Origin: Hydractinia symbiolongicarpus
Lineage: Eukaryota > Cnidaria > Hydrozoa > Anthoathecata > Hydractiniidae
DNA: 64,000 nucleotides
Reading direction: 5' to 3'
Assembly: GCF_029227915.1 (NCBI RefSeq)
Contig: NC_079882.1
Span: 22,945,001-23,009,000, forward strand
The position numbers were made by a program, and so were the translations under genes. This document shows positions 16,394 through 62,769 of the stretch, piece after piece. The notes under the pieces were generated by a model, which saw only the letters and a program-made list of their open reading frames with translations, did no database searches and was not told where the DNA came from. Within the stretch, counting starts at the first letter, position 1. Each line of letters opens with the position of its first letter.

Positions 16394-16530
16394 CCTTATA
16401 ATGATCCTCGAACCCTACTATGGTTTAACTGGTGTGTGTTCAGTCTATAGACCTTTTCATAAATTATTGCGCAATAGTATGCCTCGTATTGAAAACGAGA
16501 CAAGCGGTGCTAAACTTTTTTGTAAACAAA

Positions 16531-18054: not shown

Positions 18055-18146
18055 ACAAACAACTTTAGACTGAAGCAATGTTTTAAATCAAAAATATTTA
18101 CAAAAAGAGTGATATATATACATTACAAATATATACAGGTCTTATT

Positions 18147-20633
18147 TTACATCAATTTGTCCTGATCTTTCTCTATGATTTGTGGTAGCATATATGTAAA
18201 GTAAAACCGTAAAATGTTTTTTTGTAGTTCTTGCCAGTATTTCATGTCAAATGGCACTCTGTCGATTACAAGACCTTTTGAGGTATAAAAAATAAAATCA
18301 CACCATGTTTGACATGTGATAGCCAATTGCATTTGTATCTGATTGTAATATGTGTGATCTTTATTTATTTTGATATTTTCTGTATTGCTGTCATAGAGAA
18401 TGCAAGGGTTTTTCGCCACAGAACACACTAACTTTGGATCTATGTCTCTGTACAAGTGACTGCATTTTACCTCAAGGATGCCATAAAAGCCATTGCAGTT
18501 AACTCTTCCATCTGGTGTAGCTCCAAGCACATAATTATTTTGATCTATTGTTAAACCATTATTTTCCACAACAACTTGGAAACCTGCAATCTTCATGTAT
18601 CTTTCATAATGTGCAATGGCTATGGGTTCATGATATCGTCCATACTCAAATTTAACTTTTAAAAACTGTTGTGGTACACAACCATGCACTATATTTCGTG
18701 CTAAAGTTTTTAAGCCTCTTTCTGTTTTGGGTCCACTGTTTCCAAGTTTGTTGCACAGTGAGGCAGTAAATCTGTTTTCTCTATACTTGAACCAATTTGG
18801 ATTGTTAGCTTGGTCTCGTGTATTTTTTTCGATGCTGATTGCATCAGCTGCCTGCTCTTTTAAATTTTGTAGTAACATTAGCTTTTTTTGCTCAACTAAA
18901 TGAATTTCATTGGCATAATTATCGATAACATTGTCATTTTGTTTAAAAAAGTGGTCAGTAAAATCTGAAAACAAAACCCGGTCGCCCTTGTTTCCATCCT
19001 CCTTAATGTTACAGTAAACTTTAAAATCTGGTGGCATTAAGGCACATTGGTAGCTCAGAATAGATCCAAATGGCACCGGCCCAAATTGTGTTTGCGTGTA
19101 TAGCTGAGGATTTGTGTTCATAATTTTTGGTGCATGTGCTTTGCCATGAAAATTAGTGACGTTGTCAAGCAAAATTCTCAAACTGTCACTACGTGTGTCT
19201 CTGTTATGTTCAGATCTTGGCTCGTACAATGAAGATGTAATTCCTTTTTTAGAAGCTCCTTCAGTATTTGTGGCATTCCTTTTTGAATCTGGTGATTTAA
19301 TGGTTAGTTCTGAGACAGGTGGCTTTTGCATATATTCTCTTGCCTGCGGTACATTCCAAACACATGGCATTGATGTGCATGCTTTAGGCTCTGGAATCAT
19401 ACGCAATTCATCAACTACCCATTTAGCTAACAGTTTCATAACGGCATAGCAATGCGAACATGTGCCGGTTTTTCCGGCTGGACATTGACAATGTGCAAAT
19501 ACAACTTCACCATTAATTTTGTTAAGTACAATAAACACCCATCTATTCATTTTTTTTAAACTTGCAGCAGCTATACCTTTTATACAAAATATATTATTGT
19601 CTTGTTTGACATATATTGTGCTGGTATCAATGTATTTTTCTTCTACAAATTGTTCACCTCTTGCAAAATGTTTTTTAATTGTTTTAGCCTTTTCAACAAA
19701 TGTATTGTTTACTTTTGTGTGATAGTCTGTCATTTGCGTAACGGTAAAGACAGGTACACCTTGCAAAGACTTTGACCAGCCAGTGAGGTCCAATGGATTT
19801 TTCATATCATTTTGTATTGCTGAGGGTGCTTCAGGTAGTGAGCCTTCTTTCCAAAGCGGTTTTAAAATTTTTCCTAGCTCCATTGCTTTTTTCCTAATCC
19901 AAAGCTTATCAGGTGTTGGATCAACAATCTTCTGATTGTTTTTATTCTCAAAGTAGTTCCATACTCTAAAGTGAAGAAAAATACATTGAATACAAATGTG
20001 TTGCTTTTTATGCATACAAAATCTTGAATTTAGGAAAATATTTTTTTAGAATATATATTATATATAAATAGCTACATACACATATGATGGTAAAAAAGCA
20101 TGTAAAATAATTTTCTATGAAAATATTATAAAATCCAAGTTTATTGAGGTTGCTCTGACTTCTGTTGTGAAATTGTAATTACCAACATTCCACTTTTCTT
20201 ATGTTTCTAGATTTGTGTTTGCAATATAATAAAGCCATAATTCTGTTCAGCTTCTCTCTACAATTTAATATCACTTACCTAACTTGGGCATCTTTTAGTG
20301 TGTGAATACCACGTAGAGTGTCTCCTCTAAATACTAACCACTGTTTTAAATGTTCCATAGGATATTTTGAAAGCATTGTAACATTTAATTTTACATATGG
20401 GTTGTCAATATCATCTTCTGTGAGAGTAATGGCATCCATATCTACATAAATTTAAAAAACCTATATATATACATTTTTTATAGTTTTCGTTTTCCTAACA
20501 ATCACTTTTTTCCATTAAAACGTAAATTTCTCTTGCTAGCTAGCTTAAAAGTTTAAGGTTACTTACCAACCATGTTGTTTTTGAAATAATCATCAAAATC
20601 TGGTATCTCCAACTCGTGTTTTTTAAAATCCAT
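18147..20633 (-). CDS. SWIM zinc-finger and YqaJ-type nuclease protein of the ISL2EU-like element
   Basis: Three exons join in frame on the minus strand: 20633-20567, 20441-20279 and 19965-18147, with GT-AG introns, giving about 682 residues. Exon 2 encodes a short SAP-like helical segment (YPMEHLKQWLVFRGDTL). Around residue 236 is a SWIM zinc finger, CQCPAGKTGTCSH. The C-terminal third is a YqaJ/lambda-exonuclease-type PD-(D/E)XK domain, with ENRFTASLCNKLG, YGRYHEPIAIAHYE, LGATPDGRVN and GILEVKCSHLY. The D in TPDG and the E-x-K of LEVKC are the catalytic residues. ISL2EU elements are known to carry such a nuclease as a second gene, and a role in processing transposition intermediates is assumed, not shown. 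The PHD finger seen in the relative at 61755-62365 is absent here. All motifs are intact. Confidence 0.88.
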
Positions 20634-20906: not shown

Positions 20907-23900
20907 TATATATATTTTATATATATTTTATTATATATTTATATTATATATTTATATATATTTTATTATATATATTTTATATAGACTGCAATAGCTTCCC
21001 AAGATGGCGGACGCTTTTCCGTAACGGAATTTTAGTGCTGTTGGTGAATTTAAAATTATGATAACGCAACGAGTTGCTGAGATAATATCAAGATAGTTAT
21101 TTTCAATAATAGTACTAGCTGAAAGCAGAGAAGGGCGAATAATGAATGGGGGGAATGGCGATTCCATCGGAAATTCAAGACCTGCAACTGCAGCAGACGA
21201 AGTGATGGGCCAAGGCCTACCATCGACATCAACGGAAGTTCCGTGTGTAAAGTGCAGAAAATTATTCCGTACGGCGAGAGGTGCTCTACAACATCAGAGA
21301 CAATGTAAAGTAATTGTGTCAAGAGTCGATCTTCTGCCTGCAGAAGAAGAGGTTCCTATGCATGAAAATTCTAACAACAATGCAACAGAAGTAACAACTC
21401 CTGAACAGTTTTACTGGGGTGAAGTGAAGGGAAGTGATTTTACAAAACTGATTGATTCATGCTATGAAAAAATCGTTTTCTGGAGAAAAAATCTTTTCAT
21501 GCTCCCAAGTGGAGGCGCTGGCAAAGACTTTACCCGGGAAATAACTAGATTGCTTAATGCTTGGGTAGAAGATAGCCCGCTGGGATCGATATCTATGAAG
21601 GCGATTCACATCATGCCAGCCCTTTTACTCCAAAAACCAAGCAAAACCTCCAAAACCAGAGACCATGTAAAAGCTCTGGAAAGAAGACTGCGTTTATGGC
21701 ATGGAGGGGAGATTAATGCGTTGGTGAATGAGGCAGAAACACTACAATCAAGACTGCCAAAAATTATGGAGAAGAAAACAATTGAAACAATCTCAAAACA
21801 GTTTAAGGAGAAAATGGAAAGAGGTGATGTGCATGGCGCAATCAAATTGCTTACAAACAATATGAGTGGAGGAGTGCTTCCATTAGACGATGCGACAATT
21901 GCAACACTGAAGGAGAAGCATCCCAAAGGACAAAATACTAATGATTACAATCTACTGCATGGCCCTGTTCAACGCATCAATCCGATAATATTTGATGCTA
22001 TTGATGAGCAAATGGTACTAAAATCTGCATTGGCAACACAAGGTGGTTCGGGTCCTTCTGGTTTTGATGCTGATGGATGGAGAAGGCCGCTGACATCGAA
22101 AATGTACGGAGAGTGTGGCAAGGATTTACGATCATCCATTGCAAATGTCACAAAGAAAATTTGCACCCAACAAATAAATGATCAATCGTTGCAGGGTTTT
22201 CTAGCTGCAAGGTTAGTACCACTTGACAAGCAACCAGGAGTCCGACCCATTGGGGTCGGGGAAGTGCTAAGGCGGATCTGTGGAAAGTTGGTTATGTCAA
22301 TTGTTAAAGGAGATGTTATCATATCGGGGAGCAGGGTGCAGATGTGTTCTGGTCAAAAAGGAGGAAGTGAGGCTGCAATCCACTCGATGAGGAAAGCATT
22401 TGAAAGTGAAGGAGCTGAGGCGGTGATACTAGTAGATGCCGCTAATGCTTTCAATAACATTAATCGGAAAGCTCTACTTCACAATGTGCAAATATTGTGT
22501 CCAGAGTTCTCAAATTATGTCGTCAATTGTTATCGTGTGCCTGCCAGATTGTTTGTCATTGGTGGAATTGAACTTCGCTCTAATGAAGGGACCACTCAAG
22601 GAGACCCAATTGGCATGGCAGTTTATGCTATGGGAATTACACCACTCCTTAACATCATGTTGTCAACAATTGCTGATGTTCCAGATCAAATGGCAGCATT
22701 TGCGGACGATATTACATCAACAGGAAAATTGCAATCATTAAAGCAATGGTGGACCAATATTACAACAATCGGTCCACACTTTGGATACTTTCCCCAGCCA
22801 ATGAAATCATGGCTAATTGTAAAAGAGGAACACTTTGATCTTGCCAAAACAGTGTTTGAAGGCACAAATATACAAATATCCAAAGATGGTGAGAGACATC
22901 TTGGCGCCGTTATTGGAAGTAAAACAGCCAAAGATCAATACTGCAAAAAGAGGGTCAAACACTGGTCTGATGAATTGACCTTGCTGACACAGATTGCAGT
23001 CACCCAGCCACAGGCGGCATATGCATGTTATGTGAGTGGCTTTCAGCATCGCTACTCATACTTCATTCGAACGATACCTCAAATGGAAGATTACCTCCAA
23101 CCAATTGAAGATATTTTGAGACATCAATTTATACCAGCCATCACTGGTGGGAAAGTCATAAACGACACAGAAAGAGATCTTCTGTCCCTCCCGCCTCGGA
23201 TGGGCGGGCTTGGTCTTAAAAATGTCTGTGAAATTGCACCGATCGAGCACGAGAATTCAAAGCAATTTACATTTAAACTTCAGAATCAGATACTTGGCAC
23301 CACTGAAAATGGGGAAATAAAATCAATTGCAATGATTAAAAGTGAGAAGAACCAACGAAATAAAGAGAAACTGGTGCGAGTCAGAGCCGAGTTGAATGAA
23401 GATCAAAAGAAAAAGAACGACTCCAATTGCCTAGTCGGTTCTTCAATCTGGTTAACAAATCTTCCAATCAAAGAGCTTGCGTACGATCTCAACAAAGAGC
23501 AGTTCCAGGATGCACTGCGTATTCGATATAACTGGACCCTACCTCGATTACCCACTGAATGTATCTGTGGAAGCAGTTTTGATGTTTCACATGCGCTGTC
23601 CTGTAAGAAAGGAGGGTTTGTGGCATTAAGACATAATGAGATTCGCGACATAACAGCAAAGCTAATTGATGAGGTATGTGTCAATGTTCGAAGCGAACCA
23701 AGCTTGATGGCTCTAGATGGCGAGCAGTTTCAATATCGTACTGCCAATCGCAGCAGAGAAGCACGTTTGGACATCAGTGCTACTGGGTTCTGGACTCCTG
23801 GGCAAAGAGCATTTTTCGATATAAGGGTCTTTGACCTAAGTGCTCGAAGATACAGGGGTCTGGAGCTCAGCAAGTGCTTCAAAAGGAATGAAGATGAAAA

Positions 23901-24406
23901 GAAACGCCATTATAACGAGAGAGTAAACACCGTAGAATATGGGACCTTCAGTCCCCTTGTCTTCTCAACAAATGGAGGAATGGGTCGTGAGTGTGGAGCG
24001 TTTTACAAACGACTATCAGAGATGATTGCTGAAAAGCGGGATGTCACAGTTCAACAATCGACCAAATTCATAAGGTCGAAGATCTCATTCAGTTTGTTAA
24101 GATCAACTTTACTATGCATCAGAGGCGCACGCTCATTGTGGGGTAGGGAACCTGCAACAATCAATGACATTGAACTCTCCAATTCTCTTTCAAGGATTGT
24201 AGGCAGCGATTAATCAATAATCTATTCTGTGAAGAGATTTTAAAATTCAAAAACAATCAAAACACTCGAACAATCAGATTAAATAGACAGTAGTACAGTA
24301 TTAAAAATTAATAAATTGTTGCTATAATTGTAATGTAAGTTAAATATGAAATTAAAATCAAAAAAAAAAAAGTCACCGTACTGGAAACGTACTGGAGGCC
24401 TGAATG

Positions 24407-27850: not shown

Positions 27851-28357
27851 ATGCAGAACGTTTGACGACCTCGTACAGAGAGCTTTCTTAAGGCAAGAAT
27901 ACCTGGTGAAACATTTTTTTAAAAACATTCGACGTTTTTCTTTCGAAATTTTTATATTGTGTGTATTTTAAGAAAGAATTGTTGCTCGAGATACGTAAAA
28001 AATGAAGTCGCAACGCAAAGTAACTTGTATTATAATAATTGAAATTTTAAGCAAGTTAAAAAACGTGAAAAAAAGAAAAAGACGATTCTACCGGGTAAAA
28101 CCATTAACTAAAAGAATATCATGAAGTTAAAATCTCTTCACGTTCCATCTTCGCGCACATTTTCCTTCTAACAAAATTAGAAATGCGCAAAAATCTTTGT
28201 TTACAATAAACTGGTGCGATCTTTCTTTTAAGACAAGAAATACCATAGTCATAAGAAAAAAAGATAGTCTGGCGTCTCGGGGCCGTTTCTATTGTTCTCG
28301 CTAATCATGTTGTCAAAATGGGGGTGGCACGAGCGCCAATACACTAAAATCAGCAAG

Positions 28358-29557
28358 ATGGCTGCCGCAGCCGAAGATTACTTTGGAGATGAAGATTTGG
28401 ATGCTATTTTGTTGATACTTGAGGAGAATATTCTCGAAAATAATACAGATTTTACTGGAGAGTTCGAGGGAATAGTTGGTGAAATCAATGATGAGGTTCC
28501 TGCCGCGGGATTTCAGTGTTCTGAGTGCGAAAAAGTATGCAAAAGTCAACGTGGTTTAACCAGGCATCGTAATGTAAAACACGCACCCACAAATACTGAT
28601 TCTGCCATTGCTTCGACATCACAAAATGTGAAAAAGACCCCTGAAGAGTTGCTACATCCTCTATACTTCAAGAAATATGTAAACGCTAGTGCATTGAAGC
28701 TAGCAAAGGATGAATGTTACTCTGAGAAAACACGTGAAGAATTTGATGGCTACACAGTGACACTTGATGAGGCAAATGCATCATATGCTTATGTTCGTGA
28801 TGTAATTGGTCAATTCAAGGGAAATGCTGAGAAATTTTATCCAAAATTTTACAAATGTATATCAGCAGATGAAGTCATCTTTCAGAAATTATCACGGAAA
28901 TGTTCAGTTCTACTTGGTTGTGAGGTAGCAAATCATGTCTTGGCTCATATCACAGGTTCTATTGTGAAAGAAAACACCGTTGAATTTCCGAAACCATGTT
29001 ACAGTGCCAAGGAAATCAATATCATAATATATTTGAGTGGTTATGTCTTTTCCACAATGTACAGGCGATTGAGACGTTCAAAAGCTACACAGAGTATGTT
29101 GGGTGTTCAATGTTTGAACATACTTATAGTTGGCAAGCAATCGGCCGATGAAAGTTGCGAAAGTGATGTCCTAATAAAAGCTAAGGATAGAGGCGGTCTA
29201 TGGAGTGTTACCCCAGAAGTTCATGCAATATTTACCGAAGTCGAAACATCATTTCGCGAATCAACAGCTAATTTTGGTAGACAAATAGACAGCAAAAAAA
29301 TGGTATCAAAACTTATGGAAAATTCATACATTTTGTGTAATTTCAATAAATTGAGAAATATTTCTGCTGAAAAAGTTGAAAAAGAAATAGCGTTGAATTT
29401 GTTGGATCACTTGATAACACTTTACATCCGTGTGCGAACGTTTTCTTTGGTGAAAGATAAAATTAAACTACATAAAATTGCCTCGAAAAAAAAGAAGACC
29501 AGATCACTTCGAACCGAGATAAAAAAATCATCTGTATCACTGGACAAAGGTCATTGA
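28358..29557 (+). CDS. C2H2 zinc-finger partner protein of P-type element A
   Basis: A 399-residue intronless ORF with an acidic N-terminus (AEDYFGDEDLDAIL), then one C2H2 finger, CSECEKVCKSQRGLTRHRNVKH (residues about 52-73). A long conserved region follows without a family I know. Its marks are LHPLYFKKYV, AEKFYPKFYK, YLSGYVFSTMYRRLRR, KDRGGLWSV and LYIRVRTFSLVKDK. The YLSGYVF...R pattern faintly recalls C-terminal parts of P-type transposases (inference). The start at 28358 is chosen over an earlier in-frame ATG because element B's homologue begins at the equivalent AAAATGGCTCC. The start codon lies in AAGATGGCTGCC, a YY1-like context. The gene converges on the transposase gene, so both were carried together in at least two diverged elements. 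It could be an accessory DNA-binding or target-selection factor, or a repressor. Confidence 0.8.
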   Translation: MAAAAEDYFGDEDLDAILLILEENILENNTDFTGEFEGIVGEINDEVPAAGFQCSECEKVCKSQRGLTRHRNVKHAPTNTDSAIASTSQNVKKTPEELLHPLYFKKYVNASALKLAKDECYSEKTREEFDGYTVTLDEANASYAYVRDVIGQFKGNAEKFYPKFYKCISADEVIFQKLSRKCSVLLGCEVANHVLAHITGSIVKENTVEFPKPCYSAKEINIIIYLSGYVFSTMYRRLRRSKATQSMLGVQCLNILIVGKQSADESCESDVLIKAKDRGGLWSVTPEVHAIFTEVETSFRESTANFGRQIDSKKMVSKLMENSYILCNFNKLRNISAEKVEKEIALNLLDHLITLYIRVRTFSLVKDKIKLHKIASKKKKTRSLRTEIKKSSVSLDKGH

Positions 29558-29597: not shown

Positions 29598-30150
29598 ACA
29601 CACTTGAAAAAAGCATTATTATGGCAAATGGCATATAAACTTTATATTTTAGAAGGATACTGTATCCCAGAATTTCATATCTATGGTAAGGCACTTATTT
29701 TTTATTGCTGTTATATAGAAAAAATATGTTGAACTTCATCCCTATATATAGCAGATTTCGTGAATTTTGATTCTTTTCGCTTAAAATTTGGGAAGGAAGA
29801 AAATAATTTTTTCAATACAATGTTTCGCAAATGTTTTGAAAAGTCAAAATAATTTTTGGGGTTTTTCAGCTCTTGAAAGTTTATGTATCACACAAAAAAG
29901 ATTTTTTCAATATTTTTCTAATTTTTCATTAATCGCTAAATTAAATCTCGTAAATTTCTGCCTAAGGTACTAAGATTACAGTAAAAAAGAAAATAAAGTA
30001 AGCTAATTTTATCATTGCCAAAAACCGTGAAACTGAAAAAATAAAGGCAAATAAAAATTTTTGAAAAAATACGTACCTTGCAAAAATAGTTCACATTGCA
30101 GCAACTTCATGAGCAAGATTAATACCAAAAATATGTTTTTTTAAATGTGT

Positions 30151-30191: not shown

Positions 30192-32876
30192 TTAGTTCTT
30201 TTTGTTTCTTTTACGGCATGGAACAGTCTCAACATCTATTGTAGCGAGTATAGGGTCATCATTGCGGCAGTTACCAGCTATCGGTCGAAATAATTTTGAT
30301 GTATGAATTGTATTGTCGTTGTAACCAAAATCCCTAAGTGAAGGATTATCTTTACGGTGTCCAATTGAATGTTGCTGGCCAAAATAATTTTCAAGTGGAT
30401 CTTGACAAAATCTTTCGGTAAATACATCAGGTACATTTTGAGATAGCAAGTATTTTATGAGCTCAATACTGGAGTAAACGGTCAATTGAAGTCCCTCATA
30501 GGTTTGCCAAGAAATAAACATATTCGCTCTAGCATTATCGGTATACTGAGCATCATTTCGGTCAGCGATAGAAATTTTCCAGTCGGTGAAGTATTTTAAG
30601 AAGGTATCAATCAACCATGTGAAACGTTCATCATCAAGGTTTTCATATGGTTTTAGAAATGGTTTTTGTTTTCTTACACATTCCACAGAATTTCTGACAT
30701 TCATACAGTCAAAAAATTTGTCCAACATCCTGCAATATGTGGCCGTACCAATTGCATCCGGTGGACCATATGTCTGTAAAGCTTGAAATACAGATTCGCT
30801 CAACACTTGAGCTGCAAGTCGCACATTCATGACTGAAAAGGGTGTCAAAGAAATGTGTTCATTTGTAATTTTTGGTACTAAGTGTAACCCACAATCTAAA
30901 TCATCATGAAAAAGCTTTGAGATATGATTCCAAGTCAAATAATGACCGTCATTCCACATACTGCGAGTAGCACGGCCGGATAACGAATTAAGTAAACAGT
31001 TCCGGGATGTCTTAATCAAGTGCGGCGGGTCAGATATAAAATAAATAAAACGTTTCTCTTCTGCCATTATGTTCAGTGTACGGTATGTAACATCAATGTG
31101 AGGATTAAAATCTTCAACTCGTTCCATGTGTTGATGCATCCGATACATAGTATGGTTTGGCGAGCCACCATCACTAGTCACTCCGACAACTTTCATACCA
31201 ACATTGTCGTCTAAAATACCAACAGCTTTCCAAAACAACGGAAATAATTGTATTGAAGTAGCATTTGATGTAGCAAAATATGCTAAAGAAAATTTAAGAG
31301 GATTAACAATACTTCGGACCAGAAAAACCAAAACATGACTGGCTATATCTTCTGATTTTGATTTTGGTAAGGTGGCATAATTCAGTTCTGTGTCTCCCAG
31401 GTCAACAAAGCCAATTAAATCACCTGTGTGCTTGTCCCACACTAAATTCTCTTGGATTTTCATTTCGTCCATCAAAATTATACAATACTTTTCTATTTCT
31501 TGAAATTTAGAAACAATATTTGCGAGCTCTTTGATAACAGGTGGATTAAATCCTTGTTGAGGCCGGATGTAATTTTTGTAATCTCTTAAGCGTCTACGAC
31601 TTGGCAAAATTAAAAAACCTGTTTTATTTTTTTCATCATATCTGATTTCATCGTATACCGCGGGTGATTTTGCTGCCAAGGCAAGACAATATCGGATGAT
31701 CATTGGATGATATCTCACTCCTTTTTCTGATGTTGATAAATAATTTTGTTGTTCTGCCCAAAATTTTTTCATAAAAGGTGTAATTTTACTTTGGTCTGCA
31801 CCAGACATGATAGTCGCAAGATCATCACCAAGAGTTTCAGGAACCGGTACAGATTTCTTATTTATTTCAATGAGCAGTTGCTTGTTTTCATGTCTCGACT
31901 CTTAAACATAAAGTTTTACACGTTGCGGAGATGTCAATGTTATCGGTGCTTTCGGCTTGGCAGGAATGTTCATATTTGCTCTTTTTCTTTTCAAACTAAG
32001 ATCTTCCTTCTTCTCCACAAGAATACATTCAGCACATTTTTCAATTCCTTTTTGTATCAACAGGTAACAATTTGTTGGCCGATACCACTTTGTTTGGAAT
32101 AAAGGCGAAGAGGTGAATGATCCCATAAAGATTTTTGGTACGGTATGTTCCAAACAGCTAGCAGAAAATTTTTTTGACAGTCCAGGGCATAATGTTAATG
32201 ATGAAACCAAAGAACATAAATTAGAAATAGTAACATTTTTCACAGATCTGTCATGATTTTCATATATTTCATGTTTCACGGGAACTGACCACAAAAAAGC
32301 GCGTACTACAAAATCAAGGTGTTAATCAACATAAATCTCAAACTTTGGTACGGAATGAGTTTGATCATGGTGAAAAAAAGACATGCAACTTGTCGACGGT
32401 GAAGATACTACCCAACTGTTCAACTTCAAAGAACTCACACGATTTTTAAAATCATCAAATGATTTGTAATATGATGATCAAGTCTGTGTAGTTGATGCAT
32501 ATAAAAAAAATTCCCTTTTATTTATTATTGTGGAAGCATAATCACGAGGTTTGGTGATGGTGGAAGATGAAGGATGACTTTTTGTTGGTAAATTCAGTGT
32601 TGGTAAAACTCCTGGATTAAGGGTTGCTTTTGTAATATGTTTGTAGTATTCATCCTCCTTGAAATGACGTTGACAAATATGTAAATTACACTTTTCAATT
32701 TGACCACGAAGTGAATTATCGATCACGCGATCTTTAGTAATAATTGAGATTAGTTTATCCCTCCAATTCTTGTCGAAATCGCTTTTTCCAGCTGGCACTT
32801 TGAACAACGATAAACCCTTATACTCTGGTCGACGTGAGACTGAACAGCCGTAAATAGAACAATTAGCACCAGGCAT
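30192..32876 (-). pseudogene. THAP-domain P-type transposase of element A, with inactivating changes
   Basis: The N-terminus MPGANCSIYGCSVS...LHICQRHF is a THAP C2CH finger (start ATG at 32874-32876). A region follows with PGVLPTLNLP. After a frameshift near 32465 and an in-frame TAA near 32330, homology to element B continues (KFEIYVD, VKHEIYENHDRSVKN). A further TAA at 31902-31904 precedes the long open core (30192-31808, 538 codons). That core has the P-element/THAP9-type RNase H fold, with ILMDEMKIQENLVWD (Asp 114 counted from the ATG at 31808), VGVTSDGGSPN (Asp 213), FISDPPHLIKTSRN and the late acidic CQDPLENYFGQQ (Glu 472). The catalytic core is intact; only the N-terminal third is damaged. 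The two introns present in element B's gene are absent here. Confidence 0.85.
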
Positions 32877-33106
32877 AACAACTTTCAACGTATCAAATAA
32901 CAATTTCGAAGTAAATTTCCAAAATAAAACCAATGTTAGCAAACAAAACTTTCGATTTCCCTAACGAACATGCTAGAAAACCGCCATTTTAGATTTTGAT
33001 GCATTCGAGAGAAAAGGCCCGAGTTTAGAAACGGCCACAAAACGATAGAACAATGGCCTATTGTTACTGTCCAGACTATCTTTTTTTCTTATGACTATGG
33101 AAATAC

Positions 33107-37660: not shown

Positions 37661-37675
37661 CAAGTGTTAATGAAA

Positions 37676-37761
37676 ACTGATTTGGGAAAAACTCACTTGG
37701 CCGACAACTACAATACATTTGTATTGTAGTTGTCGGCCAAGTGAGTTTTTCCCAAATCAGT
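37676..37761. repeat. Near-perfect 86-bp palindrome
   Basis: Two 42-nt arms (37676-37717 and 37720-37761) are exact reverse complements around the 2-nt centre tt. The left arm continues the reading direction of the SWIM-protein remnant (its frame reads KTDLGKTHLADNYNT). The right arm is an inverted copy of the same stretch and then gives way to unrelated DNA. Confidence 0.95.
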
Positions 37762-38597
37762 ACACATTAAACTACACATTAAAACTAGCCAATACTTTAG
37801 CTGATCATGACTATTGTGGTGTAGCCTTATACAACGAAAATATTATAAGACTCTTTTTTATTTCCGTGACTGATTTTTTTACCAAATTATTAGCATTCTC
37901 ATATTTCTGTTAAAGCTTTTGGGAATTTCTTTCTGAAACAACAACATCTGGTCAGTCTGTCAATGATAATCTCTCATTGAAGCTCCAGTGTACACAGCAT
38001 TTATACCCATTTTTCCAGTTAATACCATCTGCTCTAAACAACATATTGCAACATCAAACAAATAAAAAGTGTGTCTTTATGTCTAACTAAAAGACTTTAA
38101 AATCTATCCGCATCCTTGTTTACAATTAAAGTAAAAGGAGTCTAAGTTGTTGTCACACTTTGAGTTTAATGGTATCTGAGTTTTAGTTAAGCACAGTGCA
38201 TCACTTACCATGAGAATGCAGTCAGATGAAATATCTTCTTTATTTTTGTTGTAAGACTTTGTATTAAAAAAAGTTATTATAATTAGAATCGTCAGTTATT
38301 ACATAAGAATTGGTATCAATTATGAATGTTCTCGTATAAAATTTTATTGTTTGGTTGCTCAGGCGTCTGCTTTAATAGCTGACTTTTGCTGGTTGATTTT
38401 CACGACATTTGAAGTATGTCTTTATCTTTATTTTTTGTTTGTTTATTTCACTTTCAATGTTTTAACATGTGCTCCCAAACTCAAACAATATCAGCGCCAC
38501 TGCATAATACATAGTCGCTCTTAAAAAGGACTTTGTGGGAAGGTTGATTATACATATAAAAATTTTTGTCCAAAAGGCATTAACAGATTCTTCTGAT
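37762..38597. other. Intergenic, no gene seen
   Basis: AT-rich sequence with short frames only, between the palindrome and a MITE. Confidence 0.5.
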
Positions 38598-40776: not shown

Positions 40777-40974
40777 ATGAATGCATAGTCACAAGAAAAA
40801 GAATAGTCTGGAGACTCGTGCCAACGCGCTCTGCTCCCGGCAAATAACTCGGGTTCCTACATTTTCTAGTACCCAGACTACTTTTAGGGGCACCAAAATT
40901 TAAAAAACAAGCGGGAAACCTTAGCGAAGCTTATATTTTTTTAAAGTAATTTTTCATTTATGCTGTAATTTGCT

Positions 40975-43889
40975 ATGCCTGGTGCTAATTGTTCGATTTT
41001 TGGTTGCTCTACTTCGAGAAGAACTACTGCCATCTCAGTATTTTGTATTCCACAAGGAAATGATGAGTACAACACATCTTGGAGACAGAAACTTATTGCT
41101 GTGATTACGAAGGATCGTGTTGTTGATAATAAGTTGAGGACACAGATTGAAAAACGTAATTTACATGTATGCGAAAAACACTTTCAACAGAGTCAGCTTA
41201 TACAACGTAGGTGCTATTTTATGTACTTTTAGCTATGTAAACATTGGAAACACTATTAATAAAGCTCTCTCTTATACCTGTTGTTTATTTAGATGAAAAA
41301 AGAAGAACACTAATTCCAGGATCTATTCCAACACTAAATTTACCAATAAAAAGCATTCCCTCTTCCAGGTATGAGACCATATATTTTTTTGTACAGATAC
41401 GTATATAGCTAGCTATTTATAAACATTTATGCATATACAGAAAATATGACCACAGGAAAAATATATATTTACAGTAAATTATATTTTTATTTCGCACATC
41501 AGTCAAGCCAAGACCTTCTGCTGAAAAGATTGCTGTGAAAAGAAACAGTACAATAACTGTTGATCAAAACCAACACATATTCTATCAATCCTTTGACAAC
41601 TTCATCGGCCGAGTAAAATCACTAAAGCTTCCAGAGAGTTGGAGTGTAGATATATCTCCAGACTTAGTAAAGGTTTGGATGTGCGATGAAATTCATTCCA
41701 GTGCACAGTTTGAAATATATGTTGACGATAGTTTGTCATTTACTATTCAAGGCTATACATGGAGTCTACCTGATGATCACGAAATATACAGTACATATAA
41801 ACGATCAGTCCGAAATATTACACTGTCAAATTTAATAAAAGTTGTATCCACCTACAAATTCTGTCCTGGAGTAATTGATTTGTCATTTGTACATTCACAC
41901 CACTTAAAGAAACATAACATCTCGAAAAATTTTTGTCTTCATTTTGATGAAATACCCTTACAACAGTCAGAATATCATCGATCTATGCATTGTTCACTGT
42001 TACAATTTAACGATGAAAAAATGTGCATGCAATGTGACAGTGCTGCTAAAAAATCGCAAAAATCTGTAAAACGTTCATCAACAAATTTGACTGTTCCAAT
42101 TAAATGCACCAATTTCGTTAACATCACCAGAACGTGTTGTGCTAAGGCTTCGCAATGAACGTGAAGAAAACAAGTCCTTGAAAATTGAGAACATGTCATT
42201 AAAACATGAAATAAAATTGCTACAAGAGGAAATATCTTCTTCTTCAGTCCCTGTTAGTTCAGAGCTAGGTTCAGATTTAAAAACCATTATGTCAAACACC
42301 AATACATCGACAATTTCTCACTCATGAAATTCTTCTGGGAGGAGCAACAAAAGTATTTGTCGTCTACAAAAACTGGTGTCCGTTACCACCCAATGGTAAT
42401 TAAATATTGTTTGTCATTGGCAGCAAAGTCACCAGCTACTTATGATGATATCCGTTATGATGAAAAATCTGGTACTGGTTTTGTGATTCTACCTAGTCGA
42501 CGTAGATTGAGAGATTATAAGAACTACATCCATCCACAACGAGGATTCAATAAAAGTATAGTTGAAGAATTAAAACTTAAAGTTGAGCATTTCAGTGACA
42601 TTGAAAAGTTTGTTGTCATTTTATTCGACGAAATGAAAATCCAAGAAAATTTAGTCTGGGATAAACAAACAGGCGAACTAATTGGATTTGTCGATCTCGG
42701 AGACATAAATATAAACTATGCAACATTACAAAAAGTAGATGGGTTAGCATCCCATGTTTTGGTTTTTCTTGTTCGGAGTATCGTAAACCCTTTTAAGTTC
42801 AGTCTGGCTAATTTTGCAACAACTGGAGCTACAGCAAGTCAAATGTTTCCTTTGTTTTGGAAAGCAGTTGGCATATGTGAACTACAATGCAATCTAAAAG
42901 TAGTTGCCGCAACATGTGATGGAGCATCACCAAACAGGAAGCTTTTCCGTATGCATTTCAACTTAACAAAAGCTGACGATATAAATCCAGATGTTGATGT
43001 TACATATCGCACAGTAAATTATTTTAGTGCTGAAAAACGATACATCTACTTTCTCTCTGATCCACCTCATCTGATAAAAACTGCTCGTAATTGCTTGTCA
43101 AACTCTGGTGCTGGTAGATGCACAAGGTTTATGTGGAATGATGGAATGTTCCTCATTTGGAATTACATAGCTGATATATTTTATGAGGATCGTGAATGTG
43201 GATTACACCTTCTACCTAAATTATCACATGATCACATTAAATTATTATCTTTTTCTGTAATGAATGTTAAGCTAGCAGCACAAGTTTTGAGTTCAACAGT
43301 CAGCACAATTTTGAATAATTATGGCCCTCCAGAAGCAGGTGGTACTGCTAAGTTTTGCGAGATGATGGATGGGTTCTTCGATATTTTGAACATCCGAAAC
43401 ACGGAAGAATACAAGCAAAAGAGGAAACCATTTCTTGTTCCATTTTCATCAGTCGATGACGCACGCTTTGTATGGCTACGTAAAGTTTTCCTTCAATATT
43501 TTGAAGATTGGTTACAGTCCATTGAGGAACGCCCAGGTGATTTTTCTAAAAACGCAAAGTCAAATATGTTTATATCTTGGCAGACATATGAAGGCCTCAA
43601 AATAACTGTCAATTCTATTATAGAGTTGGTTCAGTTTTTAGTAAATAATAATGTGCCTTATATTCTTACTGAACGTTTATGTCAAGATCCCTTAGAGAAT
43701 TATTTTGGTCGTCAGAGATCCATGGGAGCACGAAAAGACAACCCTTCAATGCGTGATTTTGGCTACAATGATAACACTATCAGGAACCAAAAAATCTTCA
43801 GGCCTATTTCTGGAGGAAATGTAGCTGGTAATGCTGTAGTGGATTTTAGTGATGAACCTGTTCCTTGGAGAAAAAAGAAAAAACTATAA
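40975..43889 (+). pseudogene. THAP-domain P-type transposase of element B, two frameshifts
   Basis: The exons read 40975-41206, 41293-41368 and 41513 onward (GT-AG introns of 86 and 144 bp; the second acceptor is inferred from frame). They give a THAP finger (MPGANCSIFGC...LHVCEKHF), GSIPTLNLP, then a region with QFEIYVDDS and a coiled coil (REENKSLKIENMSLKHEIK). The coding frame shifts by one base near 42105 and again near 42322. The core ORF 42324-43889 (521 codons) is intact, with ILFDEMKIQENLVWD, ATCDGASPN, FLSDPPHLIKTARN and CQDPLENYFGRQ, the catalytic set of P-element/THAP9-like transposases. It is slightly damaged; a sequencing error cannot be excluded, as each break is a single base. 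The stop is followed after 21 nt by the histone-like hairpin. Confidence 0.85.
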
Positions 43890-43910
43890 AGAAAAACACT
43901 TAAAAAAAAC

Positions 43911-43926
43911 GGCTATTTTTATAGCC
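43911..43926 (+). terminator. Histone-like 3' stem-loop after the element B transposase gene
   Basis: GGCTAT-TTTT-ATAGCC beginning 21 nt after the stop, with 5' flank AAAAAC and 3' flank ACACATTC. No AATAAA or ATTAAA occurs on the plus strand between the stop and the converging gene. Confidence 0.68.
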
Positions 43927-44065
43927 ACACATTCTTAAAAACATTATACTTGACTTTAAAACAGTTACACTTATGCCTCTCACTAGCCTAGCTAGCTATA
44001 TGCTAGTAACTAGCTATCCAGCTATGTGCTAATAATGCCATAGGTAATGATTTTTATAGGTGTGT

Positions 44066-44081
44066 AGCTATAAAAATAGCT
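44066..44081 (-). terminator. Histone-like 3' stem-loop after the element B zinc-finger gene (compensatory change)
   Basis: On the minus strand AGCTAT-TTTT-ATAGCT begins 24 nt after the stop, with 5' flank AAAAC and 3' flank ACACACC. The outer G-C pair of the other copies is replaced by A-T on both sides, so pairing is kept. No AATAAA or ATTAAA occurs on the minus strand in this intergenic region. Confidence 0.62.
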
Positions 44082-44105
44082 GTTTTGTTAGTGGTTGCAG
44101 TACTT

Positions 44106-45295
44106 TCAATGACCTTGATCCAGGGTGGATGATTTCTTCTTTAATTCTGTGCGTAGAGATATTGATCTCTTTGTATCGGCCGATATTTTGTGAAGCTGCA
44201 TTTTATCTTTGACAAAAGAAAATGTTCTCACTCTGACATATAGCATGAGTAGGTCTTCTAGAAGATTTAAAGAAACTTCTTTTTTCAGTGATACATCGCA
44301 GAGGTTAACTATTTTCGTGAAATTTGACTTCACATTAAAATTTTTCATAAGAAAGGAAACTATTTCCTTGCTATCAATTTTACTGCACCCTTTATTGGTA
44401 TATGATCGAAAATATTCCTCGGCAGCTGTAAAAATTAAAATTATCTCTTTTCTGACTTTCCATAGACCACCACGATCCCTAGCATTAACCAATTTGTACT
44501 CTGGTATATCTTCTGTGTCATCAGATTTTCCAGCCAGAAGAACTGCCAAATACTGTTGATGATATATTTGTTGACATGTGTTTTTTGAGGAGAAACGTAT
44601 TCGCCGATACATAGTACTAAAGATGTATCCACTAAGATAGGATATGATGGACGTTTCCTTATCTGAAAAGGTGTGTGGTTTATTTGGAACTTGCAAAACA
44701 TCCTTGAAATCAGACTTAGACAAGTGACACAATACTTGATTTGCTAACTCAAATCCTAGAAGAACAGTACAGTTGTGGCTTAGACTTGCTCCAAAGGGGT
44801 GTTCCATGTCCAAAATATTTTTATAAAATAATGGATAAAACTTTTCAGCATCTCCATCAAAAGATTTGATAACATTTTTCACCAGACTGATGATGGCAAA
44901 ACATTGTCAAGGCTACCAATTTTAAAAAACTTGAATTCGTTTGTGATTTCAGAGGGATAACATTCATCACCTGTCAATTTTATTATTGAATCCTCGATAT
45001 ATCGCTTAAAATACAGCGGATGCAGAACCTGTTCAGCTTCCAAACTTGCATCACTTTCCTTTTCTTTACTGTGCTTAGTGTTGTTGTGGCGGGATAACCC
45101 CCTTTGTGATACACAAACTTTAGAGCACAAACTACAGGTAAATGTAACCTTGGCCTTTTCTTTGGGTATTTCGTCAATTACTGAAGTTAGTTCCACTTCA
45201 AACTCAGTATTACTTTGTAAAAAATCTTCATCTATTGCCTCCAAAATAGCATCCAGATCTTCACCATAAAGGAAATCCTCTGCAGCCGGAGCCAT
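44106..45295 (-). pseudogene. C2H2 zinc-finger partner protein of P-type element B, one frameshift
   Basis: The start APAAEDFLYGEDLDAIL parallels element A's protein. A C2H2 finger follows, CSLCSKVCVSQRGLSRHNNTKH, then LHPLYFKRYIEDS. The frame breaks once near 44885-44900, after which the second part (44106-44882) continues with AEKFYPLFYKN, YLSGYIFSTMYRRIR, ARDRGGLWKV and LYVRVRTFSFVKDK to the stop. Similarity to element A's protein covers the full length. The C-terminus (LDQGH against LDKGH) and the stop position are conserved, which argues that the protein was under selection within the elements. Confidence 0.8.
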
Positions 45296-45413
45296 TTTTT
45301 AAACTTTGGTGCCCTTATATTCCGGCCACCCCAGTTTTTTGAAGTCTCTTTACGATACGGCCCGGAATGGTCGATTAACCAGACTATTCTTTTTCTTGTG
45401 ACTATGATGAATG

Positions 45414-46090
45414 TTAACAACAACAAAGTAGTAAATTTCGACATCGTTCACGTTAAGGTTATTAAGTGGGTGTTGCCAAAATGTAAAACTCTGAATGGTT
45501 TAAAATATGACGTTTATGTTATTAAAATGGTCTATAGACCATATGAAGTGTGTCAATTAAATTATGAACATTGGCATCAATATTGCCATCAAAATTGTCA
45601 AAAATTGTCATTATATTTTTGCATGTCGTTTTGAAACTTTTATCAAAACTATGAGTTACAAGAAATCTAAAGTTTGAAATAAACTCTCAAAGTTACATAC
45701 GAGGCGAGAGAGTTTGAATTTTTGTCATTAAAAATATTTAATAACACTTTAATATTTTGTCGAACGCCCTGATAAAGGATGTCCACTTTAGTGCTTGAAT
45801 AAATCTCGAAACAACTCACTGAAACCAACAGTTTAGTTGTAAAAATAGTTTGCTGCTAACCTTCCCCCCCTCCCTCTCCCCCTGTACCCCTTTATTATAG
45901 GGAAAGTGAGATGGAGGAGTGGGAATAAAATACATTCCACCCACGTTTTCTGTTTTGTTAAGATTTCTGATATTTTAGAAATATCTATTCACCCGTGCAT
46001 GTCTAAAAAGATGCAAAAAACAGTAAACCTAGTTTTCGCTGGGAATAAATGCAAAGGAGAGAAAACAAGCGTGATACAAGAGTACATATT
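45414..46090. other. Intergenic, no gene seen
   Basis: Contains a C-rich run near 45862-45892 and AT-rich low-complexity sequence. The START-domain gene's 3' flank is included. Confidence 0.5.
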
Positions 46091-46780
46091 TTATTCAAGT
46101 TTTAGGTAATTCTCATATCCCTCGATTAGACTTTCACGCCAGACATTAAATGTTTTTGGAATTGCTCTTGAAATCAAACTTTCAAATCCGTTATTTGGAA
46201 GAATTCCGTTGTAGTTGTTGTTTGTAAGTGCGAATGTATGGCACTTTTTGTCGGGTTCTTCTTTATCAGGAATGACAATAAAATAATTTCCACCATTTTC
46301 AGCTCTGACTGGACCGAAGAATGATGTTGATTTAGACGCATGCCAAGCATTTCTTTGCAAAATCATAAAAGCTTCCTCCCCGAACCAGTTAACCTTTTGA
46401 GCAGGTGGTATAAATAAAACAAATTCTCGGTCTTGTAGCGGCCAAGATGTTTCTGTCACCATGTAGGTCACATAGCCTTCATTATTTGGAAAAGTTTCCA
46501 ATACTTGATGTTTTACAAACGCTTTGTCCCATTTTAAACGTGTTTCTTGCATTGATGGGTGTAAGAGTTTAACAAAAGCTTCTGCAGGCATTGGCATGTC
46601 AAAAGTAAACAACACCTTCACAGGAATCTTTTCTTCTCTGAATGTTTTCATCCAATACTGTGAACCTGTATTGTTATAGATTTCTTTCCAACCACCGTTT
46701 TGCAGGTCTTCTTTAAACCATTTTGCTCTTGCTAATTCTTTCTCAAACGATATCTGTCTGAATGACTCTACCTCTGTCAT
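46091..46780 (-). CDS. START-domain lipid-transfer-like protein
   Basis: An intact 229-residue intronless ORF that is essentially one START domain. Its marks are GGWKEIYNNTGSQYWMKTF near the start, then VKVLFTFDMPMPAEAFVKLL, RLKWDKAF, YVTYMVTETSWPLQDREFVL (the conserved W-P-REF core), and a C-terminal amphipathic helix from SRAIPKTFNVWRES to the end. START domains form a hydrophobic cavity that binds a lipid; small single-domain members such as the PCTP/STARD10 type move phospholipids between membranes in the cytosol. No signal peptide or membrane segment is present. The ligand cannot be told. It lacks transposon features and looks like a host gene; lack of introns could mean a retrocopy or a lineage trait. 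A retroelement starts 75 bp beyond its 5' end on the other strand. Confidence 0.88.
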   Translation of the reverse strand: MTEVESFRQISFEKELARAKWFKEDLQNGGWKEIYNNTGSQYWMKTFREEKIPVKVLFTFDMPMPAEAFVKLLHPSMQETRLKWDKAFVKHQVLETFPNNEGYVTYMVTETSWPLQDREFVLFIPPAQKVNWFGEEAFMILQRNAWHASKSTSFFGPVRAENGGNYFIVIPDKEEPDKKCHTFALTNNNYNGILPNNGFESLISRAIPKTFNVWRESLIEGYENYLKLE

Positions 46781-46854: not shown

Positions 46855-48168
46855 ATGCATCGCGAACTGCTTGAGAGTGGAAGGATTCGGGAAACTGCAT
46901 TCACTCCTCACGTGGTAAACCCATTATCCGTCTCTACTCAAGGTAATGGTAAAAAACGCCTTATCTTGGATTTAAGACATGTAAATAAGCATATATATAA
47001 AGACAAAGTAAAATTTGATGACTGGAGAGTCATGGAAGAATACTTAAAGAGGGATAGCTTCATGTTTCAGTTTGATCTGAAGCAAGGTTATCACCATATT
47101 GATATATTTGAAGAACATCAAACTTATCTTGGATTTTCTTGGAAATTTGAAGGGATAACAAAACATTTCGTATTCACTGTTCTACCTCTTGGCTTAACTT
47201 CTGCCCCATTTATTTTTACAAAAGTAATGCGTTGTCTGGTTAAATATTGGAGGAAAAGCGCGATTTGTATTTCTGTGTACCTTGATGATGGATTAGGAGT
47301 CGCAAGCTCATACGAAACATGTTTAAAACAGTCGGAATTTGTTCAGGAGACTTTATTTAAAAGCGGATTCGTTGTTAACAACGATAAAAGTGTCTGGAAT
47401 CCACAAAAAGAAGTAATCTGGTTAGGCGTTAAAGCAGATTTGCATAGAAATGTTTTCACTATCCCTCAAATACGAGTTAACTCCATCTTAGATTGTATTA
47501 ATAAGGCCATTCAAAACTTACCGTATTCAACAGCGAGAAATTTAGCAAGGCTGTGTGGCAAAATTGTTTCTACAAAGTTCGTTGTGAAAGAATTAATTCA
47601 ATTAAAAACTAGAAACTTATACAAAATCATTGATGCAGAAATGTCTTGGGATTCTCGAATTAATCTGAAAGAAAAGGATCAGGCTATTAAGGAAATTATC
47701 TTTTGGCGTGATAATTTTGAAATGTTTAACAAAAGAGAAATCATTCCCTACAGAATTCCACAAATTGATGTTTATTCGGACGCTAGTGATTACGCTATAG
47801 GAGCGCACGTAAGAACGGACAGCAAAACATACACCTGTTTTAAGAATTTTAAAGTTCATGAGAAAAACTTTAGTTCCACATGGCGGGAATTATATGCAAT
47901 TCTGTTCACATTAGAAACATTCAAAACCATATTAAAAGGAAAAATTATAAATTGGAAATCGGACAATTTCGCAGCTACTATAATAACAAAATCAGGTAGT
48001 GCAAAATCCCAGCTACAAGAAATAGCTGAACGTATTTTCAAAATCGGTTTTGATTATTCTATCGATATCAATATATCATGGATACCTAGAAAAGAAAATC
48101 GTTTGGCAGATAAAATAAGTAAATATTTTGACTACGATGATTGGCAAACTACAGAAAAGTGTTTTTAA
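46855..48168 (+). CDS. Reverse transcriptase-RNase H of a tyrosine-recombinase retroelement (partial)
   Basis: A 437-codon open frame. The RT has KKRLILDLRHVNKHIY, FQFDLKQGYHHIDI (motif A), LGLTSAPFIFTKVMR and ISVYLDDGLGV (catalytic DD). RNase H follows, with IDVYSDASDYAIGAHV, TWRELYAILFTLE, INWKSDNFAATII and ISWIPRKENRLADKISK. These are the DIRS-type variants of each motif. The N-terminal fingers region is short, suggesting the true ORF began further upstream. At 48160-48165 a run of T shifts the frame, and the natural continuation is the overlapping ORF 48128-48589. Encoded enzymes would make cDNA that the recombinase integrates. Confidence 0.85.
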   Translation: MHRELLESGRIRETAFTPHVVNPLSVSTQGNGKKRLILDLRHVNKHIYKDKVKFDDWRVMEEYLKRDSFMFQFDLKQGYHHIDIFEEHQTYLGFSWKFEGITKHFVFTVLPLGLTSAPFIFTKVMRCLVKYWRKSAICISVYLDDGLGVASSYETCLKQSEFVQETLFKSGFVVNNDKSVWNPQKEVIWLGVKADLHRNVFTIPQIRVNSILDCINKAIQNLPYSTARNLARLCGKIVSTKFVVKELIQLKTRNLYKIIDAEMSWDSRINLKEKDQAIKEIIFWRDNFEMFNKREIIPYRIPQIDVYSDASDYAIGAHVRTDSKTYTCFKNFKVHEKNFSSTWRELYAILFTLETFKTILKGKIINWKSDNFAATIITKSGSAKSQLQEIAERIFKIGFDYSIDINISWIPRKENRLADKISKYFDYDDWQTTEKCF

Positions 48169-62386: not shown

Positions 62387-62402
62387 GGCTATTTTTATAG
62401 CC
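62387..62402 (+). terminator. Histone-like 3' stem-loop after the YqaJ/PHD gene of element C
   Basis: GGCTAT-TTTT-ATAGCC, 21 nt after the stop, with 5' flank CAAACC and 3' flank ACATCT. The core and ACA flank are identical to those of the unrelated P-type elements A and B. Confidence 0.65.
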
Positions 62403-62408
62403 ACATCT

Positions 62409-62483
62409 GTCTTGGTCGTCCAATGGCAGGACACCGCACTGTTTTAAACTGTAGGAAACCCAGTTTCGATTCCTGGTCAAGAC
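62409..62483 (+). tRNA. tRNA-like sequence downstream of the hairpin, plus arm
   Basis: A 75-nt stretch with acceptor arm GTCTTGG/TCAAGAC, a D-arm-like GTCC-AATGGCA-GGAC, and a T arm with loop TTCGATT. The B-box-like GTTTCGATTCC is close to consensus. The anticodon arm is too long (about 22 nt) and partly unpaired. It starts 6 nt after the hairpin stem. More likely a tRNA-derived element than a working tRNA gene. Confidence 0.4.
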
Positions 62484-62672
62484 TTTTTCCATTGACTTGA
62501 TACGAAAGAAGTGGTTCTTTAAATGATTTTCAGAAAATTGGCAATTTTATTTATATAAAAATTAAGGATAATCGTGAAACACACAAGTTTTTACGCAAAC
62601 ACTTTGTTCACTTGAAATATTGCTTGTGATGTTAAAACTTTTTTTACAGTTCCCAATATTGCAATTATAAAG

Positions 62673-62747
62673 GTCTTGACCAGGAATCGAACTTGGGTTT
62701 CCTACTGTTTAAAACAGTGAGGTATCCTACCACTGGACGATCAAGAC
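62673..62747 (-). tRNA. tRNA-like sequence downstream of the hairpin, minus arm
   Basis: On the minus strand the acceptor stem GTCTTGA/TCAAGAC pairs perfectly over 7 bp. The D arm is GTCC-AGTGGTA-GGAT. The anticodon-like arm pairs over 7 bp with one bulge around loop TTTTAAA, whose central triplet TTA would read UAA. The T arm CCAAG-TTCGATT-CCTGG has one mismatch. The mismatch differs from that of the plus copy, so the common ancestor had a fully paired T stem. It begins 6 nt after the minus-strand hairpin. Confidence 0.42.
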
Positions 62748-62753
62748 AGATGT

Positions 62754-62769
62754 GGCTATAAAAATAGCC
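62754..62769 (-). terminator. Histone-like 3' stem-loop after the transposase gene of element C
   Basis: The same GGCTAT-TTTT-ATAGCC hairpin on the minus strand, 21 nt after the stop at 62791-62793, with 5' flank CAAACT and 3' flank ACATCT. Inverted counterpart of 62387-62402. Confidence 0.65.

Follow-up and report, generated by a model that had tools for sequence, protein, structure and literature searches.

Passages of two papers (PMC6303110; PMC1924863) describe histone mRNAs as the only protein-coding mRNAs of animals that end in a stem-loop instead of a poly(A) tail. A stretch of the genome of the hydrozoan Hydractinia symbiolongicarpus raises the question of whether certain DNA transposons end their mRNAs in the same manner. 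The stretch (herein the window) comprises 64,000 nucleotides of contig NC_079882.1, positions 22,945,001 to 23,009,000 of the forward strand. A sequence-only reading of it had reported that both convergent genes of a P-type transposon, element B, are followed by histone-like hairpins, and had taken the transposase mRNAs to be processed like histone mRNAs.

We read these hairpins, with a probability of roughly 0.85, as histone-type mRNA 3'-end signals of P-type, and of some ISL2EU-like and PIF/Harbinger-like, transposons. The putative signal consists of a stem-loop, an ACA flank and a downstream element (the latter not in the family of element C), and it stands after both or one of the convergent genes, as in the replication-dependent histone genes of the host. 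A signal is indicated by identity with the host module, a near-constant distance from the stop codon, sense orientation, conservation across saturation and compensatory changes. No precedent for a histone-type stem-loop on transposons was found in the open-licence literature, which is no proof of absence.

Convergent genes and their paired hairpins

Elements A (28.2-33.1 kb) and B carry the same two convergent genes (Table 1). Pfam finds TNP-like RNase H and GTP-binding insertion domains in both transposases, and a two-sequence profile built from them matches the P transposase of PDB entry 6p5a (E 3.3e-18). The P-type transposase domains, together with the terminal inverted repeats, place A and B in the P superfamily. 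All of these features are also those of the Drosophila P element; on the other hand, A and B differ from it in having a second convergent zinc-finger gene and histone-type ends, and the Drosophila P element uses ordinary polyadenylation. No Pfam domain was found in the C-terminal part of the second gene (ORF2) of element B. The target site duplication of the P superfamily is 8 bp; the repeats that flank A and B are 7 bp long (GAAATAC and ATGAATG, respectively) if the terminal repeat starts at CATAGTC, a border that is uncertain.

Element C (61.6-63.5 kb) is a shortened ISL2EU-like element, with AT beside TCTCGGATYCGGG at both ends (by eye) and a THAP domain (E 1.4e-9). Neither a DDE nor a YqaJ domain was found in the pieces of element C that were tested, and since the element is apparently internally deleted, it is called "ISL2EU-like" only.

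Table 1. Positions of the features of elements A, B and C within the window
Feature	Position	Strand	Remarks
Element A, left 30-bp terminal inverted repeat	28243..28272	+	7-bp flank GAAATAC, repeated at right end
Element A, ORF2, C2H2 zinc finger protein	28361..29557	+	finger E 5.3e-4, under Pfam cut-off; 49% identity to B ORF2
Element A, ORF2 stem-loop	29582..29597	+	24 nt past stop; Histone3 31.5 bits, E 4.2e-5; histone-only model 47.2 bits, E 1.8e-7
Element A, ORF2 downstream element AAAAAAGCATTA	29607..29618	+	from histone-only model, four-way comparison
Element A, transposase downstream element AAAAAAACATA	30132..30142	-	from histone-only model, four-way comparison
Element A, transposase stem-loop	30151..30166	-	25 nt past stop; Histone3 32.5 bits, E 1.7e-5; histone-only model 58.0 bits, E 7.8e-10
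Element A, P-type transposase ORF	30192..31808	-	62% identity to B transposase
Element A, right 30-bp terminal inverted repeat	33071..33100	-	pairs with left repeat
Element B, left 28-bp terminal inverted repeat	40784..40811	+	7-bp flank ATGAATG, repeated at right end
Element B, P-type transposase ORF	42324..43889	+	Pfam PF21787, PF21788; upstream part in separate ORFs or exons
Element B, transposase stem-loop GGCTAT-TTTT-ATAGCC	43911..43926	+	21 nt past stop (43889); Histone3 31.3 bits, E 5e-5; histone-only model 62.4 bits, E 8.8e-11
Element B, transposase downstream element AAAAACATTA	43937..43946	+	common to host histone genes; candidate histone downstream element (HDE)
Element B, second-gene downstream element AAAAATCATTA	44045..44055	-	from histone-only model, four-way comparison
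Element B, ORF2 stem-loop AGCTAT-TTTT-ATAGCT	44066..44081	-	24 nt past stop (44106); outer pair doubly changed; histone-only model 46.0 bits, E 3.3e-7
Element B, second gene (ORF2), C-terminal part	44106..44882	-	ORF
Element B, right 28-bp terminal inverted repeat	45379..45406	-	pairs with left repeat
Element C, stem-loop of PHD-ended gene	62387..62402	+	21 nt past stop (62365); histone-only model 24.7 bits, E 0.014, stem and ACA only
Element C, tRNA-like structure	62409..62484	+	Rfam tRNA 33.2 bits (gathering 29); replaces histone downstream element
Element C, tRNA-like structure	62672..62747	-	Rfam tRNA 39.1 bits (gathering 29); ARAGORN anticodon UUA
Element C, stem-loop of THAP-side gene	62754..62769	-	21 nt past stop (62791); histone-only model 24.7 bits, E 0.014

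When the window was scanned for perfect hairpins with a 6-bp stem and a 4-nt loop, the core GCTATTTTTATAGC turned up six times, as three convergent pairs that belong to elements A, B and C. The stem begins 24, 25, 21, 24, 21 and 21 nt past the stop codon, so that all six ends fall within 21-25 nt, and every one of the loops reads TTTT on the sense strand. The two hairpins of element B were confirmed as the sequence-only reading had described them, including their distances from the stop codons, the 5' flank AAAAC, the 3' flank ACACA and the sense-strand TTTT loop. Its claim of a compensatory change likewise holds, the outer pair being G-C on the transposase side versus A-T on the ORF2 side. 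By an order-2 Markov model, the two strands of the window together should contain the exact 16-mer 4.6e-5 times, versus five occurrences and one A-T variant observed; this expectation and the reversed-pattern control in the genome (see below) rule out chance or low complexity as the origin of the hairpins. Besides the two hairpins, the gap of element B contains many AGCTAT/TAGCTA words (43980-44045), which are found in other parts of the window as well.

The hairpins are kept despite saturation at the fourfold sites of the two transposases, where 31 of 111 bases are identical between A and B (31% expected at saturation); for the second genes the figure is 17 of 42 (33% expected). Between A and B, identity from -3 to +20 of the stem reaches 88-100% in 4-nt bins, as against a background of ~27% that some upstream coding bins exceed. 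From +21 to +36 it amounts to 50-81%, and this block contains the AAAAANCATTA element. The four-way match score of AAAAANCATTA, 28, was reached by none of 300 dinucleotide shuffles; the single cross pairs are weaker, being reached by 4, 4, 22 and 143 of 1000 shuffles.

Poly(A) signals had been reported as absent. This is correct for the 216-bp gap of element B, which has neither AATAAA nor ATTAAA on either strand; it fails as a generality, since the gap of element A contains seven AWTAAA, including an ATTAAA one nucleotide 5' of each hairpin, and the gap of element C contains one. Even in element B, 1.3 AWTAAA are expected and P(none) is 0.28, so their absence carries little weight and was dropped as uninformative. 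A neighbouring gene, which we take to be START-domain-like, shows an ordinary arrangement, with an AATAAA (46089-46094) overlapping its stop codon (46091).

The window holds further features. A reverse-transcriptase ORF at 21142-24213 lies just under the Pfam cut-off, and one of another kind, at 46855-48168, has an RNase H domain. At 37670-37767 (minus strand) there is a long near-perfect inverted repeat, perhaps a small inverted-repeat transposon, which resembles the microRNA precursor family MIR1319, with 53.8 bits, far under the cut-off of 116.6.

Comparison with the histone genes of the host

The sequence-only reading had called for a comparison with the organism's own histone stem-loops. 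The histone loci (contig 9) were reached through their similarity to the gap of element B. H1 and H3 were identified by Pfam above cut-off, H4 by its sequence and a sub-threshold histone match, and H2A and H2B by sequence motif. Genes for H1, H2A, H3 and H4 end in exactly GGCTATTTTTATAGCC, the same 16-mer as in the transposons, and those for H2B end in GGTCTTTTTTAAGACC. The stem typically begins 21-32 nt past the stop codon in copies with intact frames, and 5, 61 or 65 nt past it in a few altered copies. The histone hairpins are then followed by ACACATCTTTAAAAAAACATT or close variants, and their flanks and the downstream element AAAAACATTA are as in the transposons. A motif scan of loci L039-L042 gave 33 matches, 24 with the hairpin and nine without it by the pattern used; of the nine, some apparently sit at the edge of a locus and others in a frame that is altered or unrelated.

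The histone repeat of L040 also contains U1, U2, 5S rRNA and tRNA-Arg beside H1, H2A, H2B, H3 and H4, so that histone genes and small RNA genes are mixed in one array; L039, L041 and L042 show this in part. Histone arrays of Hydractinia with an arginine tRNA have already been published, according to passages of PMC5011920.

A covariance model was built from histones only, with one end each of H1, H2A, H2B, H3 and H4. Applied to the window, it gave 32 matches with E values of up to 10, headed by the six transposon ends at 62.4, 58.0, 47.2, 46.0, 24.7 and 24.7 bits (E 8.8e-11 to 0.014); the seventh match, at 20.0 bits and E 0.15, is without a stem. With the Rfam family Histone3 (RF00032), three of the six hairpins were found at E 1.7e-5 to 5e-5 (below 1e-4 over all 4,227 families). 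The A-U variant of element B is not listed among the Histone3 matches, and the hairpins of element C, in which the downstream element is absent, score 16.1 and 15.5 bits. At 32.5, 31.5 and 31.3 bits, the best three transposon ends fall 1.5-2.7 bits short of the curated cut-off of 34 bits. As a control, the histones of the host gave 38.9 (H2B), 36.9 (H1), 35.1 (H2A), 30.8 (H3) and 29.2 bits (H4). The three best transposon ends therefore rank between host H2A and H3, and since H3 and H4 also miss 34 bits, this cut-off fails to distinguish histone ends from other ones here.

The sequence-only reading had regarded the A-U at the fifth pair of the stem as a departure from the histone consensus. This objection does not apply here, as the same pair occurs in the host histone genes and is thus no departure in this host. 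The 5' flank is A-rich, but a C adjoins the stem in most transposon ends; the host histones have the same C. The C. elegans histone mRNAs, in the passages of PMC1924863 drawn on here, also have this C beside the stem, with flanks AAC and ACAT that are close to the present ones, and they end 3-6 nt past the hairpin with a 3' hydroxyl. Histone pre-mRNA is cut at a CA 5 or 7 nt past the stem (passages of PMC6303110), and elements A and B provide ACACA for comparison.

To compare the stems for covariation, the transposon ends were grouped by hand and one was taken for each family and gene; in the resulting 23 ends, of which 20 are distinct, 99.2% of cells are paired. Among the 20 distinct ends, the outer pair is G-C in 13, A-U in five, U-A in one and unpaired in one; at the third pair, 18 have C-G and two have U-G, and at the fifth, 19 have A-U and one has U-A. 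The second pair is G-C in all 20, and in 25 of 26 in the wider set that includes the histones, the other being G-U. This is the pair with which SLBP makes base-specific contacts and at which a G is required, as stated in a passage of PMC10388802. The covariation score of the transposon ends was 0.211, a value that none of 500 shuffles reached (mean 0.087) and that lay above every slid version (maximum 0.057), although some stem changes are shared by descent and so represent few independent events. Less extreme among the five measures were double-change pairs (18 of 500 shuffles) and further pair types (54 of 500). With the histones added, the set comprised 68 rows, of which 26 are distinct; here 97.4% of cells were paired and the score of 0.278 again exceeded all 500 shuffles, while further pair types were not extreme (250 of 500). 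A lack of covariation had been named as something that would speak against the histone reading; the outcome is in its favour.

At the level of sequence, the histone reading is thus borne out by the letter-for-letter match of the hairpin and by the match of flanks, stop distance and downstream element. The transposon ends share with the histone 3' stem-loop (RF00032) a stem-loop identical to that of the host, the flanks, the stop distance, the downstream element and the invariant G of the second pair. They differ from the histone system in that they follow transposases and second genes, mostly in convergent pairs, in that the outer pair can also be A-U or U-A, and in that poly(A) signals are sometimes present.

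Relatives elsewhere in the genome

The sequence GCTATTTTTATAGCNACA has 3,654 exact matches in the 481-Mb genome (~0.27 expected), versus none for the reversed control. Most of these are presumably in histone arrays (compare those of echinata, in passages of PMC5011920). Among the first 100 matches, which are those listed (contigs 1-6), 39 GCTATTTTTATAGCNACA places were read: 30 from the start of the list, all on contig 1, and nine more from seven regions of contigs 5 and 6. The loci read among the matches listed contain 49 hairpins, of which 31 stand after P-type second genes, 13 after P-type transposases, one after a YqaJ gene, and four after none of the proteins tried. Without five loci that repeat a neighbour, the corresponding numbers among the matches listed are 39, 26, 8, 1 and 4. 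Weak assignments are those of L050, with 34 aligned residues (E 4e-6), and of L079, with 51 residues (E 8e-10).

The position of the hairpin was further compared among P-type copies, of which 110 C-termini were placed; ends with fewer than 100 nt beyond, or outside the alignment, were dropped, and a hairpin was defined by at least 13 of 16 letters. In 71 non-histone loci a hairpin lies within 130 nt of all 47 transposase ends and of 60 among the 63 ends of second genes (the exceptions being L037, L049 and L065), counts that express consistency and not frequency, as the loci were chosen by resemblance to the hairpin or its region and some overlap. Copies without conservation of position would have spoken against the histone reading; the position proved to be conserved. 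The downstream element AAAAACATTA or close variants occur in A, B, most of the other families listed and the histones, and not in C. No relatives were found in viral and prokaryote contigs.

Hairpins of this type are not confined to P-type elements. Three of the unassigned ones, in L044, L047 and L068, follow ORFs that share one end, and the ORF of L068, the only one of the three tested, is a PIF/Harbinger-like DDE_Tnp_4 transposase (E 8.6e-22). This gene ends 13 nt before the stem, versus 21-25 nt in the elements of the window, and no Pfam match was obtained for its convergent second ORF; PIF/Harbinger elements combine a DDE_Tnp_4 transposase with a Myb/SANT second gene and have a 3-bp duplication. 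The hairpin of L075 follows none of the proteins tried. L079 is ISL2EU-like, judged by its tblastn similarity to YqaJ and by a transposase recognised on reading its ORFs, and the module is present on both sides (62.4 and 54.0 bits). Element D of the window (16432-20015) is of ISL2EU type, its THAP/DDE_Tnp_4 and YqaJ genes (Pfam) converging over a gap of 92 bp; unlike L079 and C, it has a histone-type hairpin at neither gene end. With the features of the PHIS group taken for comparison from passages of PMC4482050, the likeness to ISL2EU and PIF/Harbinger elements (PHIS superfamily) lies in THAP-DDE_Tnp_4 and YqaJ for D, in the gene content of L079, in the AT flanks and THAP domain of C, and in DDE_Tnp_4 for L068. 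The histone-type ends of L079, L068 and the C family distinguish these from known ISL2EU and PIF/Harbinger elements.

A particular feature of element C is a tRNA-like structure on each arm, separated from the stem by a 6-nt spacer, ACATCT. ARAGORN did not accept the structure on the plus strand. The genome contains 25 matches, full or partial, to the module of element C, including the two arms of the window; 13 regions were read, which cover 15 of the 25. Thirteen arms were recognised, and no recognisable arm was found in L090 and L091. Nine arms have the exact stem-loop, those of L087 and L092 have one extra T in the loop, and those of L088 and L089 have substitutions in the stem. With 4-9 nt allowed, the spacer between stem and tRNA-like structure is 6 nt in all 13. 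Nine of the 13 passed the tRNA cut-off, at 36.3 to 48.1 bits; L086 missed it narrowly (27.9 bits), and the arms of L088, L089 and L092 have no listed tRNA match. All arms accepted by ARAGORN (nine in L080-L087 and one of two in the window) have the predicted anticodon UUA. Such an anticodon would read the stop codon UAA; the arms lie on both strands of the element. The unit is possibly a suppressor-type tRNA, or only a processing signal.

Alternative readings and a possible mechanism

That the hairpins are part of, or a backup next to, ordinary cleavage and polyadenylation signals, and that the transposase mRNAs are polyadenylated as usual, appears improbable. The ATTAAA just 5' of both hairpins of element A, the further AWTAAA downstream and the CA cleavage sites offered by ACACA would suit such an arrangement, but the hairpin is constant even where the gap contains no AWTAAA (B) or one (C), an ordinary signal has no need of a host histone stem-loop and downstream element, and the ordinary layout is seen in the neighbouring gene, with its AATAAA over the stop at 46091. 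Still less probable is a role of the palindromes at the level of DNA, whether transposase binds them as internal inverted repeats or they form a barrier that separates the convergent genes, with the likeness to histones due to descent or chance. The hairpins do form inverted pairs between the genes of A, B and C and are palindromic in DNA; however, histone genes have identical modules and no transposase, the TTTT loop is on the sense strand in six of six window ends, and a single sequence is common to three types of transposase, with chance excluded. Furthermore, the double change in element B preserves the local hairpin and, by inspection, would disrupt long-range pairing of the arms. Since it would break that pairing, long-range pairing, considered on account of sub-threshold matches to microRNA families, was rejected as the selected structure.

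The near-identity of the stems would also fit a module captured from a histone gene and carried along without function, and the module probably came from histone arrays, by recombination, in the first place. As an account of its persistence, mere carriage is the least probable of the readings weighed here. It predicts that hairpins decay as fast as their flanks, and the opposite is seen between families A and B, which are saturated at silent sites yet have preserved the stretch from -3 to +20 along with much of the downstream element; moreover, the stems change in pairs.

For the tRNA-like unit of the C family, a serious contender, held at somewhat less than even odds, is an inserted SINE-like or suppressor tRNA gene that has nothing to do with mRNA 3' ends. 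The unit qualifies as a tRNA with the anticodon UUA, and tRNA-derived repeats are common, in keeping with that possibility. Against it stands the start of the unit 6 nt past the stem, on both arms of the window and in 13 of 13 arms elsewhere. In the C family the tRNA-like structure would stand in place of the U7 site, and RNase P, by cutting at its 5' end, would produce an end of the same kind as in histones, with a 3' hydroxyl 6 nt past the stem. The noncoding RNAs MALAT1 and NEAT1 have 3' ends that are stabilised by triple helices. Their ends are cut by RNase P at a tRNA-like structure, and in element C such a unit likewise lies directly 3' of the expected mature end; unlike them, element C has coding genes with a histone stem-loop. 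Among long noncoding RNAs, only MALAT1 and NEAT1 mature through the tRNA machinery, according to a passage of PMC12941219.

Under the histone reading, SLBP would bind the stem-loop of the transposons, in which the G that it requires at the second pair is invariant, and U7 snRNP would pair with AAAAACATTA. The transcript would be cut ~5 nt past the stem and receive no poly(A) tail, and such an mRNA would be stable and translated mainly in S phase. We infer from the shared module that transposase mRNAs end at the hairpin and that transposase is thereby limited to S phase. P elements repair the gap left by excision from the sister chromatid, and in S phase a sister chromatid would be available to refill it. 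Short convergent 3' ends would, in addition, keep the two transcripts from overlapping. The broader view, namely that three kinds of transposon took over the histone 3' module, with poly(A)-less transposase mRNAs coupled to S phase, and that one family exchanged the U7 cut for an RNase P cut at a tRNA-like structure to obtain a histone-like end, is put forward tentatively, at just under an even chance.

If the histone reading is true, transposase would have a built-in link to DNA replication and would escape control that is based on poly(A). It would also explain how the two convergent genes of element B can end within 216 bp without overlap, and poly(A)-selected RNA-seq would miss transposons of this kind. 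If it holds for the family of element C, the RNase P route would be a third way of finishing a protein-coding mRNA. The finding makes it testable whether DNA transposons may use RNA, and not the protein, to set their activity to S phase.
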